A stretch of 64,000 nucleotides of DNA, taken from NCBI RefSeq assembly GCF_019711595.1, contig NZ_JAIGNR010000001.1, forward strand, positions 1,116,001-1,180,000, given 5' to 3'. Within the stretch, counting starts at the first letter, position 1. Every line of letters begins with the position of its first letter. Positions 18,318 through 24,415 of this stretch are shown here, in pieces. The position numbers and the translations under genes are program-made. The notes beneath the pieces were generated by a model. The model saw only the letters and a list, made by a program, of their open reading frames with translations. It was not told where the DNA came from and searched no databases. The DNA is from Qipengyuania sphaerica (GTDB taxonomy: Bacteria > Pseudomonadota > Alphaproteobacteria > Sphingomonadales > Sphingomonadaceae).

Positions 18318-20135
<1,818 letters not shown>

Positions 20136-20186
20136 CGATTTGCTGCGGAAATTGCAAAACTTGCTTGTGATGTTAGGCTAAATCGA

Positions 20187-21299
20187 ATGGCGAAATTAGA
20201 CAACATCGAGCCGAAATTTCTCCTTCTCGATATCGAGAATCCGCGATTTGGCTTGGCTGAAGCTGAAAGCCAAAGCGAAGCCATCGAAATTTTGGCTCAG
20301 AAGGCTAACTTACGCGAACTCTGGGACTCCATTTTGTTGAAAGGGTTTGAACCCTTTGAACCTTTGGTGGCTTTTCCAGACGGAGGCAATTTTATAGTCG
20401 TGGAAGGCAATCGTCGCCTAGCGGCGGTCAAATCGCTTTTGGAGCCTTCCCTTCTCGCGAATGTGAAGATTTCCGTCCCCGAGTTGCAAAGCAATTTTGT
20501 GACCAAGTCTCTGGAAAAAATACCGGTTAATGTGGTTTCGAAGCGTGACGAAGCCGACGATTATATCGGGTTCAAACACATTAACGGACCATCTAGCTGG
20601 GACGCTCTTGCAAAAGCTAGGTTCGCCGTAAGACTGTTTGAAAAAATGGATCTGCCAAGTGGGAACGACGACAATCGAATAGAAATTTTGGGTAAGAGGC
20701 TTGGTGATGGACGTCAGTTGATCCTCCGAAGCTTGGTTGCCTTCAAGATCATCGAGCAGTCCATCGAACTTGGCTATCTGGACGAACTAGAGGTTAAGAC
20801 GAACTCTCTAGATTTTTCGCATCTATATACGATGTTGCCAAATCGTGATGTCAGATTTTATCTTGGCCTAGGGGAGGACCCCTTAAACGAAGCCTCGGTT
20901 GTCAGCGACCCTATCCCTCAAAGTCATCACGATAATCTCCGCTATATGATGATGTGGCTTTTCGGAGACGAAAAGAATCGGCCCCTCATCCAACGCCAAG
21001 GATCTGATCGCCCTAAACTCCAAAAAGTGCTTTCATCACAGGACGCAACTGAAACCTTGGAGCTTACCGGAGATTTTGAGAGGGCTGTTGAGGAGGCGGG
21101 TTTCTTCACAGATAATTGGCTCGCAGATACCGTAAAACTTTCGACACTTTCGAAGAGTGTTGCTGACGGAATTACTGATCTCCCACCAGAACTCAGTGCC
21201 GATGATTTGGAAAAAGCCAATGCGCGATTAATCTCGAGTCAAAGAAACGTTAAAAGCGCTGTTGCATCTTTGAATTCCCTTTTCAGCGATGAAGATTGA
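20187..21299 (+). CDS. ParB-like (ParB/Srx fold) protein of accessory cassette
   Basis: A 370-residue protein with an N-terminal ParB/sulfiredoxin-like domain: DIENPRF at 15-21, a helical segment with EPFEPLVAF near 55-63 and EGNRRLAAVK at 73-82, matching the ParB GxxRxxA box. The C-terminal two thirds are helical and unlike chromosomal ParB, and no helix-turn-helix of the Spo0J type was recognised. The gene is AT-rich and uses codons unlike its neighbours (many TTT, AAA, GAT), implying transfer. Its stop lies inside the next gene (11 bp overlap), so the two are co-translated. Together with the adenine methyltransferase nearby it may form a defence or modification cassette; that function is inference. 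Confidence 0.7.
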   Translation: MAKLDNIEPKFLLLDIENPRFGLAEAESQSEAIEILAQKANLRELWDSILLKGFEPFEPLVAFPDGGNFIVVEGNRRLAAVKSLLEPSLLANVKISVPELQSNFVTKSLEKIPVNVVSKRDEADDYIGFKHINGPSSWDALAKARFAVRLFEKMDLPSGNDDNRIEILGKRLGDGRQLILRSLVAFKIIEQSIELGYLDELEVKTNSLDFSHLYTMLPNRDVRFYLGLGEDPLNEASVVSDPIPQSHHDNLRYMMMWLFGDEKNRPLIQRQGSDRPKLQKVLSSQDATETLELTGDFERAVEEAGFFTDNWLADTVKLSTLSKSVADGITDLPPELSADDLEKANARLISSQRNVKSAVASLNSLFSDED

Positions 21300-22326
21300 G
21301 GTTGCACCGGTAGCGACCGGAGAGGAAATTCGAACCATCGCTTTTGCCATCGAGCTTGCTGCATTTTTCAACGGTGAGGTGCGAGTTGATAGCATTGAGT
21401 GGGATATTGATCCGCTGACTGATTGGTACATTAATAGCGAAGTTGCCGAAGAAGAGCGTGATGCGTACTTAGAAGAGCGTCAGCAGGCGGAAGACGAAGC
21501 TCGCGAGGCAACACTATCGCGCCTGGTCTCGGTTTTTAAAGAACGATCTAAGAGTCTTGGCGCTGTTTATCCCCTTGAACTGGATTTAGAAAACGGCGTC
21601 CTTCTTCGTCGCGTTGAGAATTTCGCATGCGTGCCGCAAGTTGCATGCTACATTTGGCTGGCGCTGTTTCGGGCTAGCCATTCGGCATATGAATGCCTTA
21701 TTGTTGACGGCGAAAGTCGCTCAAAAATCCATAGTCATTTTAAGAATGTGTTCGAGCTAATTGCTGCCTTTTCAGCGATAGGCCAGTTTCCCGGATATGC
21801 ATGGTACCTTGGAAGCTCGCGCGACGTCAAAAAGCTCTTGAGACGGCTGGGCTATGTCACGCACCGAGTCGGTAGTGGCGTAGTGAAGAACATCGACGCG
21901 ATGGATATCAATCAGGTAAACGACAATGACGGTGGCGTGGATGTGCTGCTATATCGGCAAGGTCAGGTTCCTATTATCCATCTTGTTGGGGCGACAATAC
22001 AGAAGCAACAACGAAAAAATAAAATTATGGGGCAGCGAGAGAAGGAACGTTTTAGAAGATTCTTCCAAAACAATATAAACTTGCCTCTTCAAGGTATTTT
22101 GGCAATACCTTTTGAAAAGTCTGAGGTTGATGCCTTAAACTGCGCTGAGGAAGATTGTCTCTATTTTCACGCCGAAAACATTATTGACAGCCTTGGGATG
22201 GTGTCGTCATACGAGCCAGCAAAATACAGGCATCTAGGTCTTCAATTGCGTGACAAGACGATTGGGGGGCTAAGAGACTTATCTTTAGATGAAGCGGATG
22301 TGATCAAAGACTGCTTCGCGGCGTGA
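21289..22326 (+). CDS. unknown protein, possibly restriction-nuclease-like
   Basis: A 345-residue protein I cannot place in a named family. The N-terminus (about 35-75) is acidic and Glu-rich and probably helical. The central part includes GYAWYLGSSRDVKKLLRRLGY (170-190). From residue 211 it reads NDNDGGVDVLLY followed by a beta-rich HLVGATIQKQQRK. An Asp in GG-x-D followed by a strand with Gln and Lys resembles the layout of PD-(D/E)xK nucleases, but the exact (E/Q)xK spacing is not clear, so this is only a lead. It overlaps the ParB-like gene by 11 bp and its 3' end overlaps the convergent methyltransferase gene by 23 bp. Base composition is AT-rich like the rest of the cassette. Confidence 0.55.
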   Translation: MKIEVAPVATGEEIRTIAFAIELAAFFNGEVRVDSIEWDIDPLTDWYINSEVAEEERDAYLEERQQAEDEAREATLSRLVSVFKERSKSLGAVYPLELDLENGVLLRRVENFACVPQVACYIWLALFRASHSAYECLIVDGESRSKIHSHFKNVFELIAAFSAIGQFPGYAWYLGSSRDVKKLLRRLGYVTHRVGSGVVKNIDAMDINQVNDNDGGVDVLLYRQGQVPIIHLVGATIQKQQRKNKIMGQREKERFRRFFQNNINLPLQGILAIPFEKSEVDALNCAEEDCLYFHAENIIDSLGMVSSYEPAKYRHLGLQLRDKTIGGLRDLSLDEADVIKDCFAA

Positions 22327-23164
22327 TAAGCAACTCCCGTTCATTGTATTTTTTCTGAAGACTATAACGGATGGGGAAACTCCCGACCTCAGCGTGCGAG
22401 TATATCTCGTGAATTAAAGGATGATCGTCATAGGTCATCATCCAGTTTTTAATCGATTTCTTTCGTTTCAAGGCGCTGGAGAGTTCGCGGTGTTTTTTCT
22501 CATTCATCGTGTTGAGGTAAAGTCTACTCCCTGCTGTGACGTAAGGAGGATCAATGAAGAAGAAAGTTGAACGGGCTAACGGTGCTTTAAATGACCTCAG
22601 GAATTTAACGCCGTCCATATTCGACGTGATGATGATCTCACGTTTGTCAGCAAAAAATTCCACTCTCTTTATCATTGTTTCGCGATAGAAACGGGCATCG
22701 AGCTTCCATTTGCCAGATTGCTCGTAGCCTCCAACAGGTCCAGCCCCGAGAATGATCCCAGAACGATTGGTTCGGTTCATGAAAAATGTCGCAAAACCGA
22801 GATCGAATTCAGAGTCAGCAGTTCGAGGGTCCGCTACCAACTGGTGCATTCGTCTCCAATTATCGATAGTAATTTCAGTATCTCGAATACGGTCTATGAA
22901 CTGCGAGTTATGATCTAGGATTGCATTCCACGCCGCAAAAATTCTCGGATCTGCGTCGTTTAGATAGAGTCGATCGACAACATTTTGCGCCAACAGTTCG
23001 ATTGCTGCGCCCGCCCCACCCGCGTAAGGTTCTGCATAGCCGCTAATTTCGCAGTCGCTACACGAAAGTGCGTCATAAATCTTGGGGGTGAGGACAGCCT
23101 TTCCGCCCGGATAACGGAACGGTGATTTTCCACTTCCGCCTTGGGGGCGAACATCGAAGTCCAT
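22304..23164 (-). CDS. D12-class adenine-specific DNA methyltransferase
   Basis: DNA N6-adenine methyltransferase of the Dam/DpnII (D12) class, 286 residues. It has the class opening FRYPGGK at 16-22, the SAM-binding EPYAGGAG at 45-52, NDADP at 69-73 and the catalytic DPPY at 205-208. The target sequence cannot be read from the protein. It is AT-rich and convergent with the unknown protein of the cassette, with a 23 bp overlap of the 3' ends. If the neighbouring gene encodes a nuclease, this enzyme would protect host DNA; alternatively it is an orphan modification enzyme. A partner recognisable as a standard type II endonuclease is not present. Confidence 0.88.
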   Translation of the reverse strand: MDFDVRPQGGSGKSPFRYPGGKAVLTPKIYDALSCSDCEISGYAEPYAGGAGAAIELLAQNVVDRLYLNDADPRIFAAWNAILDHNSQFIDRIRDTEITIDNWRRMHQLVADPRTADSEFDLGFATFFMNRTNRSGIILGAGPVGGYEQSGKWKLDARFYRETMIKRVEFFADKREIIITSNMDGVKFLRSFKAPLARSTFFFIDPPYVTAGSRLYLNTMNEKKHRELSSALKRKKSIKNWMMTYDDHPLIHEIYSHAEVGSFPIRYSLQKKYNERELLITPRSSL

Positions 23165-23252
23165 GGGAATACTTTGCTAACTGTGGTGCTAGCCGCAGAG
23201 TGATAACTTTCGCCGGCCGTGAGGTCAATCGCTACTAGAGCTTCTCGTTAGA

Positions 23253-24104
23253 CTAATCCCACCCCTCATCCTTGACCGTCCGCCAGCGCGGGTTCTCCTC
23301 CTCGCTGTCCTCCCCGTCGCCCGCCTCGTCCTCCGGCTCGTCGTCTTCCCAGACGATGCCCCAGTCGTTGTGGGGGCCGTCCTCGACATGGCCGGGCCTG
23401 TACATCGGGTGCTCCGGGTCGCGTAGCGGGCTGTAGCCTTCCTCGCGATCGGCGGCGATTGCGGCTTCCAGCGCCAGCCTCGCGGCGCGGACGCGGGGGC
23501 TTTCCCATTGCTCCTCCTTCTCGCGGATCATGTCGATCTTGGCGTTGATCGATGCCATCGTCGCGACTTCCTCCTGCAGCTGCTCGGCGGCGCGTTCGGC
23601 CTCCCATTCCTTGCGCCACTTGGTGCGCAGGCGGGTGAGCTCCATCGTGTCGATGGCGTTCATGCCCTTGGGCTTGCCTTCGGTGAAGCGCTCGGGCGCG
23701 CGGTTTCTCAGCATGAACATGAGCAGGCGGTCGTTATAGGAAATGCGCGTGCCGACGAGCTGGCCGTAGGAGTACACGGGCACCTCCACCCCGTTCAGGG
23801 CGCGGTCCATGGCGACGTCCTCGATCCGCTGCACGCCGAGATCGAGCGCGGCTTGCCAGGCCTTGCGGAAGCTTTCCGCGCCCGGTTGGCGGCGCAGGTG
23901 GTAGGCGCCCACCGTGCTCATGTTGACCGCGCGGCAGGCGGCCTGGACGCTGCCGGTATCGGCGAGCGCCTCGATGAAGCGGCGCTGGCGGTCCTCGGTC
24001 CAGCCGTCGTGGCGCCTGGTCTGGCGCGGGACGGGGGTGAAGGAGGGGAGTTCACCTGCGGGGACGGGAAGGCGGGTTTCGCGATTGTCGGCGCGGCGGG
24101 TCAT
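23253..24104 (-). CDS. HTH protein resembling phage terminase small subunit
   Basis: A basic-then-acidic protein of 283 residues. The N-terminal half has a helix-turn-helix-like segment (RRFIEALADTGSVQAACRAV then MSTVGAYHLRRQ) of the type found in terminase small subunits. The middle is rich in charged helices and the C-terminus is strongly acidic (DDEPEDEAGDGEDSEEE). GC content is high and codon use matches the chromosome, unlike the AT-rich cassette just before it. The start is uncertain: ATG at 24104 with GAGAG before it, or ATG at 24119. No large terminase, portal or capsid gene is nearby, so it is either a phage remnant or a domesticated DNA-binding protein. Confidence 0.6.
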   Translation of the reverse strand: MTRRADNRETRLPVPAGELPSFTPVPRQTRRHDGWTEDRQRRFIEALADTGSVQAACRAVNMSTVGAYHLRRQPGAESFRKAWQAALDLGVQRIEDVAMDRALNGVEVPVYSYGQLVGTRISYNDRLLMFMLRNRAPERFTEGKPKGMNAIDTMELTRLRTKWRKEWEAERAAEQLQEEVATMASINAKIDMIREKEEQWESPRVRAARLALEAAIAADREEGYSPLRDPEHPMYRPGHVEDGPHNDWGIVWEDDEPEDEAGDGEDSEEENPRWRTVKDEGWD

Positions 24105-24415
24105 GCGGGCTCTCGTCATACGAAAAAGGCCGGGACAATGCCCCGACCCTCTTGCGGTAGGAAAGTGGAATAGGAGACGCGTTCTTTGTTTCCGCACCCG
24201 CATCCGCGGGTGCGTCCTCGCTAGACGTGCGGCAAGCCGCACCCGCTGCGGGCGGGCGGTCGCCCTTGCGGTCCGCTGGTCGCGGACCGGACCAGCGCTA
24301 GACGGCTAACCTTGTTCTTGGTCGCGGCAGCCAAAGGCCGACTGGCCGTCGCGCCCTATGGCGCGGAAGCCTAAGGGAGCGGACGCGACCGCCGGCGCTT
24401 GAGGCTAAACAAAAA
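24105..24415. repeat. hairpin-rich GC-rich intergenic stretch
   Basis: This gap between the HTH gene and proA contains no convincing gene. It holds several perfect inverted repeats: an 8-bp stem with 4-nt loop at 24194-24213, a 6-bp stem at 24228-24241, and a 7-bp stem with 5-nt loop at 24270-24288. The word GCTAGACG occurs twice, at about 24220 and 24297. Open frames cross it on both strands, as expected for GC-rich repeats. It may be a dispersed intergenic repeat or the leader/trailer of proA; no copy elsewhere in the window was noticed. Confidence 0.5.

Follow-up and report, generated by a model that had tools for sequence, protein, structure and literature searches.

What is the function of the three AT-rich genes that lie between lepA and a terminase-small-subunit-like (terS-like) gene of Qipengyuania sphaerica? 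The 64,000-nucleotide stretch of DNA analysed here, the window (contig NZ_JAIGNR010000001.1 of assembly GCF_019711595.1, positions 1,116,001 to 1,180,000), carries three intact open reading frames (ORFs) without internal stops, which we call A (20187–21299, plus strand, 370 residues), B (21289–22326, plus strand, 345 residues) and M (22304–23164, minus strand, 286 residues). We consider it fairly probable that A, a protein of predicted ParB-type fold, B, a predicted nuclease, and M, a D12-class adenine-N6 DNA methyltransferase, constitute a restriction-modification-like anti-phage defence with a ParB-type recogniser, sister to the known system PD-λ-5. A and B overlap by 11 bp, and the convergent M overlaps B by 23 bp; 51 bp separate the lepA stop codon from the cassette, and 88 bp separate the cassette from the stop codon of the terS-like gene. 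The GC content of A, B and M is 0.467, 0.474 and 0.474, against 0.588–0.679 in 11 neighbouring genes; the corresponding values at third codon positions (GC3) are 0.47–0.49 against 0.709–0.876, and the trio fits the neighbours' own codon usage at 0.385–0.386, where the neighbours score 0.606–0.843. These figures agree with a preliminary description of this DNA, which had called the composition and codon use of the trio unlike those of its surroundings, and recomputing the two overlaps that it gave returned the same coordinates. By eye, the genes around A are lepA, B, M, the terS-like gene and proA, and no integrase or transposase was seen by eye among the ORFs of 14–32 kb; scans against family libraries covered eight proteins of the window, namely the trio, the terS-like protein and four others.

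Do the three genes recur together? When A was used as the query, short-form relatives appeared in two P2-like coliphages, Wphi and vB_EcoM-12474II, and in Pseudomonas phage D14A. In all three phages a short A is followed by an overlapping or abutting second gene and then by a convergent methyltransferase, which there either carries a cytosine-C5 annotation or can be recognised as an enzyme of that class. The A-B DNA of 12474II is present at 99% or above in 36 of 5,426 complete E. coli genomes, and the position of the trio in Wphi is presumably one of the known prophage defence hotspots. Viral contigs searched with A alone yielded nothing, and relatives emerged with an alignment. Using a 14-row alignment of short A proteins, we examined the best 80 of 449 confirmed bacterial loci and the best 80 of 148 viral loci, many of the latter being near-copies. 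B adjoins A in 154 of these 160 loci (76/80 bacterial, 78/80 viral). Of the remaining six, four stop at a contig edge (L122, L154, L196 and L220); in L162, A and B form a single 707-residue ORF (A at 12–376, B at 383–705); and L146 retains A and a methyltransferase, with B reduced to a 70-residue remnant; that B should decay first is what one would expect of the dangerous component. The pair has a methyltransferase from one of the three profiled classes nearby in 151 loci (76/80 bacterial, 75/80 viral): D12 in 63 bacterial and 30 viral loci, N4/N6-type in 13 and 3, and C5 in 0 and 42. Seven of the nine loci lacking one run out of contig; L165 has a complete A and B and no recognised methyltransferase in its stretch, and L145 has a shortened A. 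The idea that methyltransferase-free A-B loci are common was dismissed once contig ends were checked. The preliminary description had allowed that the trio might not co-occur elsewhere, and these counts show that it does.

Within each methyltransferase class the pairwise divergence of A closely follows that of B (r = 0.93 for D12, n = 62; 0.98 for C5, n = 23; 0.90 for N4, n = 14), and the values for A and M are 0.57, 0.39 and 0.88, respectively, both sets being without species-tree control. B is the least conserved of the three proteins: in the D12 set its mean identity is 0.22, whereas A has 0.36 and M 0.38. By a quick method, the methyltransferase class requires 9 changes on a tree built from 98 short A proteins, against a mean of 31.0 in shuffled data, where a count as low occurred in 0 of 200 trials; the C5 loci form one group, and D12 and N4-type loci alternate. 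We read these patterns, which come from sequence comparison, as suggesting that A and B function as a unit and that M is replaceable. The class of M changes within one A-B lineage, which would not be expected of a restriction enzyme with a fixed motif; either A-B specificity shifts fast or M guards in a different way.

What, then, is B? The window protein has no match in Pfam, PADLOC or NCBIfam up to E = 1 and only two weak matches in PHROG (0.03 and 0.11); 16 relatives gave no PADLOC match, and their Pfam matches are two weak, single-member ones (0.031 and 0.083). A search with B alone found no relative in genome contigs, phages, plasmids or 395 other genomes of the order, and the family was recognised only through the neighbours of A. 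The AlphaFold model of B, built on a 104-row alignment, has a predicted local distance difference test score (pLDDT) of 93.3. Its best Foldseek match is MspJI, at 7.8e-4 and probability 0.99 but with a template modelling (TM) score of 0.22. Re-alignment by VIA to 999 chains placed 49 at Z of at least 5 and none at Z 8, and the top rows, mostly nucleases by title, include SdaI (Z 7.4, 125 residues, 3.6 Å), Nt.BspD6I (7.1), FokI (6.5), MspJI (6.4) and a CRISPR ancillary nuclease (6.0). Matches of the B profile to bromodomains, mS55 (0.01) and others were taken for chance.

The conservation of individual residues adds weight to a nuclease fold. Asp214 and Asp218, the ends of the D-G-G-V-D segment at 21928–21942 (plus strand) in which Asp218 is the predicted catalytic residue, are present in 104/104 rows. 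Gln235 is found in every one of the 93 rows outside the window's own subfamily (93/104 of all), and those 93 rows have Lys at position 237 in 18 cases, at 245 in 74, at both in one, and never at neither; overall, Lys237 occurs in 19/104 rows. The 11 rows of the window's subfamily have Ala at 235 and invariant Gln238 and Lys245, and in this subfamily the segment from Gln238 to Lys245 (22000–22023, plus strand) is predicted to hold the remaining catalytic residues. The profile of the B family aligns its DGGxD...GQ pattern with that of MspJI at a sub-threshold E of 0.73, a line that we count only in combination with the fold match. MspJI has a PD-QxK site (PMC12707154). We predict that B is a PD-(D/E)XK nuclease akin to MspJI, and thus a candidate nuclease family missing from the libraries searched. 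The "GG-x-D then Gln/Lys" pattern, which the preliminary description had offered as a nuclease-like hint, coincides with the predicted active site, and the clear non-nuclease fold that it had held up as the contrary outcome did not appear.

A is matched by the PADLOC profile PD-Lambda-5_A (PDLC03998; 1.8e-26, residues 1–149), by phrog_3694, the short form (4.7e-59, residues 3–364), and by the 715-position profile of the PADLOC candidate PDC-M38A (residues 39–202). The Pfam ParB model does not match A up to E = 1 and A by itself had no match in a sequence search of the PDB; a profile built from 14 A proteins reached ParB, Spo0J and Noc entries of the PDB at 3.2e-5 and weaker. The AlphaFold model of A (pLDDT 93.4, 98-row alignment) matches Noc (2.7e-5) and ParB (5.8e-5) by Foldseek, with a query TM score of 0.21. 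VIA aligns it with ParB at Z 10.5 (95 residues, 2.4 Å) and with a pNOB8-like ParB at Z 9.4 (208 residues), and its N-terminal domain plus helix-turn-helix (HTH) region with KorB at Z 10.2 (195 residues, 4.6 Å). The segment EGNRR (residues 73–77; 20403–20417, plus strand) is invariant in 98/98 aligned short A proteins, and we take it to be the counterpart of nucleotide-binding box II of ParB. On the strength of the model, A is predicted to have the fold of the ParB cytidine triphosphatases (CTPases) plus an HTH region, in keeping with the ParB/Srx fold first suggested for it. Likewise, the assignment of M to the D12 class holds: M matches Pfam D12 (PF02086) at 2.7e-12, PADLOC PD-Lambda-5_B (PDLC04018) at 1.4e-91 and PDB entry 7m6b at 2.3e-16, and has a DPPY motif at 22541–22552 (minus strand).

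The position of the cassette is also informative. It fills the interval 20136–23252 between lepA (18318–20135, plus strand) and the terS-like gene (23253–24242, minus strand), and in L032, of the same genus, and L033, of the same family, a like module with an A 31–35% identical lies between the same two genes. We compared 62 stretches, chosen for a well-conserved terS-like gene or a close lepA and not at random: 40 beside terS-like genes from the family, 20 beside lepA from the genus, and L032 and L033. Under a strict border rule that accepts long lepA matches only, 55 pass and 7 are dropped; lepA adjoins the slot in these relatives too. All 55 intervals are occupied (1.5–8.4 kb, median 3.3 kb), and in 52 the GC content is lower than in either flank by 3 points or more. 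At E 1e-8, a rule that a distant B could escape, neither A, B nor M has a match in the 20 same-genus stretches. The cargo of the first of these sets was scanned as 86 of 97 selected ORFs, and the matches listed are those of the commonest 25 of 73 Pfam and 25 of 452 PADLOC families. Among them are C5 methylase, Vsr, Eco57I, MmeI-like, type ISP and EcoRI methylase families, and GmrSD, SIR2, AbiEii-type AAA, reverse transcriptase and HNH families, as well as copper-resistance genes and one transposase. We conclude that a single-slot defence hotspot lies between lepA and the terS-like gene, the outcome that a search for a defence island around the trio had been meant to reveal, and this chromosomal slot has been refilled repeatedly. 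How this happens is hinted at by a second piece of the lepA C-terminus inside the interval in L254, L260, L279, L284 and L288: in L260 the piece is identical over 105/105 residues and has cargo on both sides, and in L264 two lepA pieces stand at a contig end. Incoming DNA may bring its own lepA end, with exchange or integration via lepA. A direct-repeat search of 19700–24400 in the window found no lepA-derived or slot-flanking repeat.

The other border of the slot deserves separate comment. The terS-like product matches phrog_4044, the PHROG family of the terminase small subunit, at 1.4e-23; we rejected the gene as sole evidence of a prophage, since 170 of 199 genomes from the family have a relative, frequently with multiple copies, and it is thus not by itself a prophage remnant. 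At several chromosomal sites these multi-copy genes border AT-rich, often defence-like cargo, and they may have some part in its transfer, for instance through packaging by a phage or gene transfer agent. Among 43 loci examined (L296–L338), the terS-like gene lies within the stretch in 42, and a GC dip of at least 0.06 is found on its 5' side in 33/42, on its 3' side in 2/42 and in distal sequence in 1/42; these loci are not independent, because 19, 5 and 3 of them fall at three shared sites and 15 are unlinked. The cargo lies on the 3' side of the gene at the lepA site and on the 5' side at the other sites. The AT-rich ORFs beside terS paralogues (62 of 63 selected) match GajA, Old, AriA-like ATPases, GmrSD, SIR2, Thoeris ThsB, Cap15 and STALD, and also lipases, LuxR-type regulators and metabolic genes. 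Two examples come from the window's own genome. A 660-residue AT-rich protein with a GGKD...Q pattern (L296, 5744–7726) lies between a set of genes resembling rpsL, fusA and tuf by eye and a terS-like gene, and has no Pfam or PADLOC match at 1e-5. Beside another terS-like gene, an AT-rich 436-residue protein that by eye resembles a dGTPase (L297, 6207–7517) is possibly a defence dGTPase.

We propose that M methylates a motif on host DNA, as its class, assigned by homology, would imply, and that this methylation is the self-mark. A would recognise DNA, probably at unmodified sites, and switch state with a nucleoside triphosphate (NTP), as its modelled fold suggests. B, to judge from its predicted fold and active-site pattern, would be recruited or activated by A and would cut invading DNA. 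More tentatively, A may be an NTP-gated ParB-type clamp that loads at unmethylated motifs, slides from them and licenses B to cut, with interchangeable methyltransferases and with effectors that may likewise be exchanged, either nuclease B or the C-terminal domain of PD-λ-5_A; if so, restriction would be driven by a clamp that is switched by nucleotides and not by a helicase motor. Several observations weigh against the proposal as a whole. The VIA scores of B fall below Z 8 and its Foldseek TM score is low, so that the match may reflect a common arrangement. Catalysis by the window's subfamily is less certain because it has Ala and no Gln at position 235 (11/11 rows). The distance correlations are weakened by the missing species-tree control. 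Because M swaps class, an A-B pair with a fixed motif would need matching changes, for which the data give no explanation. The convergent layout is not essential, since L092 and L093, whose A proteins are the two closest relatives of the window's, carry the methyltransferase upstream and codirectional. Generic methyltransferase and AAA matches in PADLOC are weak evidence of defence, the RecN of the window itself matching 16 such families. Finally, in the assay reported in PMC12704722, 17 of 28 purified ParB-fold proteins showed no NTP binding, and a section heading of that article states that sequence and AlphaFold3 are not reliable predictors of nucleotide specificity.

Could B act instead on modified DNA, as a type IV-like enzyme, or on the host itself once A senses infection, with M as an antitoxin-like guard or a maker of targets? 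The nearest match of B in fold and active site, MspJI, is a modification-dependent enzyme (as stated in the section of PMC12707154 consulted), an interchangeable M class is easier to understand if M is a generic guard, and PD-λ-5 has been termed a compacted "RM+Abi" (PMC9519451, in the portion consulted). Yet a nuclease able to cut the methylated genome of its own host would kill the cell if it were not under tight control, and our library and fold searches recognised no modified-base reader domain in A or B; we regard this explanation as unlikely. We give a smaller chance still to the possibility that A and M act as they do in PD-λ-5 with B as an optional accessory. PADLOC does label A and M as PD-Lambda-5_A and PD-Lambda-5_B. 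However, the 24 PD-Lambda-5_A matches listed (among 25 of 26 matching families) all end by residue 155 of A, and the C-terminal domain of PD-λ-5_A (profile about 160–466) is therefore missing from A; B is A's neighbour almost throughout and co-diverges with it; and 21 of the 80 bacterial loci have a long A of the PD-λ-5 type no more than 5 kb from a short A-B pair, for which reason the two look like separate modules. Least probable is that phages and mobile DNA carry the trio for addiction or as an orphan epigenetic module, with no immune role, which would suit the frequency of the trio in P2-like and other viral contigs but fits poorly with a chromosomal slot that otherwise holds restriction-modification, reverse transcriptase, GmrSD, SIR2 and AbiEii-like genes, among others, and with prophage and satellite hotspots known to house defence systems (PMC9122126 and PMC9519451, as far as their accessible text goes). 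The preliminary description had left the choice between a defence and an epigenetic module; we consider a purely epigenetic role less likely than restriction-type defence.

How does this proposed restriction-type defence compare with known systems? The closest is PD-λ-5 (Vassallo et al. 2022, PMC9519451), which gave broad phage protection in an E. coli host lacking the mrr region; the same article describes it as an "RM+Abi" system in compacted, prophage-borne form. The earlier view that the trio matches no known restriction-modification or anti-phage system must accordingly be revised: the N-terminal domain of A and M both match PD-λ-5, and B is in no library searched. The two systems share a ParB-like N-terminal domain of A and a D12 methyltransferase, and in some loci both kinds of A stand side by side with one methyltransferase. 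They differ in that A of the PD-λ-5 type has about 425–576 residues, with another C-terminal domain, against 370 in the window, and in that the long A and the methyltransferase are codirectional with nothing between them in the long-A loci studied here, whereas in the window B lies between A and a convergent M. Because these two features, the C-terminal domain and the layout, fail, we do not file A-B-M as PD-λ-5; we favour describing it as a sister module whose effector is a predicted DNA nuclease. PD-λ-5 would have a like ParB domain with another C-terminal domain in place of the partner B, and the two would therefore represent one type of sensor and one self-mark with alternative effectors. 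In 17 of the 21 loci with a nearby long A, a D12 methyltransferase is upstream of the short A, the usual order being long A–methyltransferase–short A–B, and in these composites the PD-λ-5-type A and the A-B pair apparently share one methyltransferase. Composites of this kind were seen in L100–L102, L104–L107, L109, L112 and L113 (with actinobacterial titles) and in L092, L093, L117, L118 and L151.

Across 25 aligned rows, the long A has its ParB part in common with the short A, and its C-terminal part has an invariant His and an LRxFLE...H pattern; we take this domain to be HEPN-like. A HEPN–ParB fusion, Saro_3948, and a HEPN family in an operon with ParB and a DNA methylase have been described (Anantharaman et al. 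2013, PMC3710099); there the effector is HEPN, and the A-B-M trio is not described in the portion of that article consulted. The trio was likewise not found in the accessible parts of PMC9519451, PMC12704722, PMC12839542, PMC12829572, PMC9122126, PMC10853773 and PMC12707154, or in a wider literature search that excluded subscription papers, preprints, REBASE and supplementary files. A also matches the candidate PDC-M38A. Candidates of that kind are the 724–731-residue A relatives of L075–L078, which have an A-like N-terminal half and no B-like part and are followed by a gene that by eye resembles TOPRIM; they are probably another ParB-based module. We rejected the notion that these proteins are A-B fusions, as they have no match to the B profile; the sole fusion seen is that of L162. 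In L040 (4803–6763) and L079 (7182–9135) a short A variant is followed by an Mrr-like protein of the GDGGIDF...GQAKHF or ADQGIDF...GQSKHY type, possibly a further effector variant; blastp with M, a search limited to D12, found no D12 relative there.

Like nucleases of the MspJI/Mrr PD-QxK type, of which MspJI is its best Foldseek match, B has the DGGxD...GQ layout; unlike them, it has no recognised fused reader domain, is accompanied by a ParB-fold partner and a methyltransferase, and has Lys only at the shifted place in 85/104 rows, with Gln shifted too in the window's 11. The trio resembles type II restriction-modification in pairing a stand-alone methyltransferase with an adjacent predicted nuclease that is nearly never without one, and differs in that a third, ParB-fold protein is always the neighbour of the nuclease and in that the methyltransferase class is swapped. 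A has the fold of the ParB, Noc and KorB CTPase clamps over residues 1–296, with the invariant GNRR, but no ParA-like neighbour was seen by eye, and its partner is a predicted nuclease. This A-B pairing gives the ParB fold a partner and makes a mechanism testable, and the P2-like coliphage copies (orf98-orf96-mth in Wphi) are directly testable in laboratory E. coli. We suggest that PD-λ-5 belongs, as one branch, to a modular set in which one type of ParB sensor is combined with exchangeable self-marks and exchangeable effectors.

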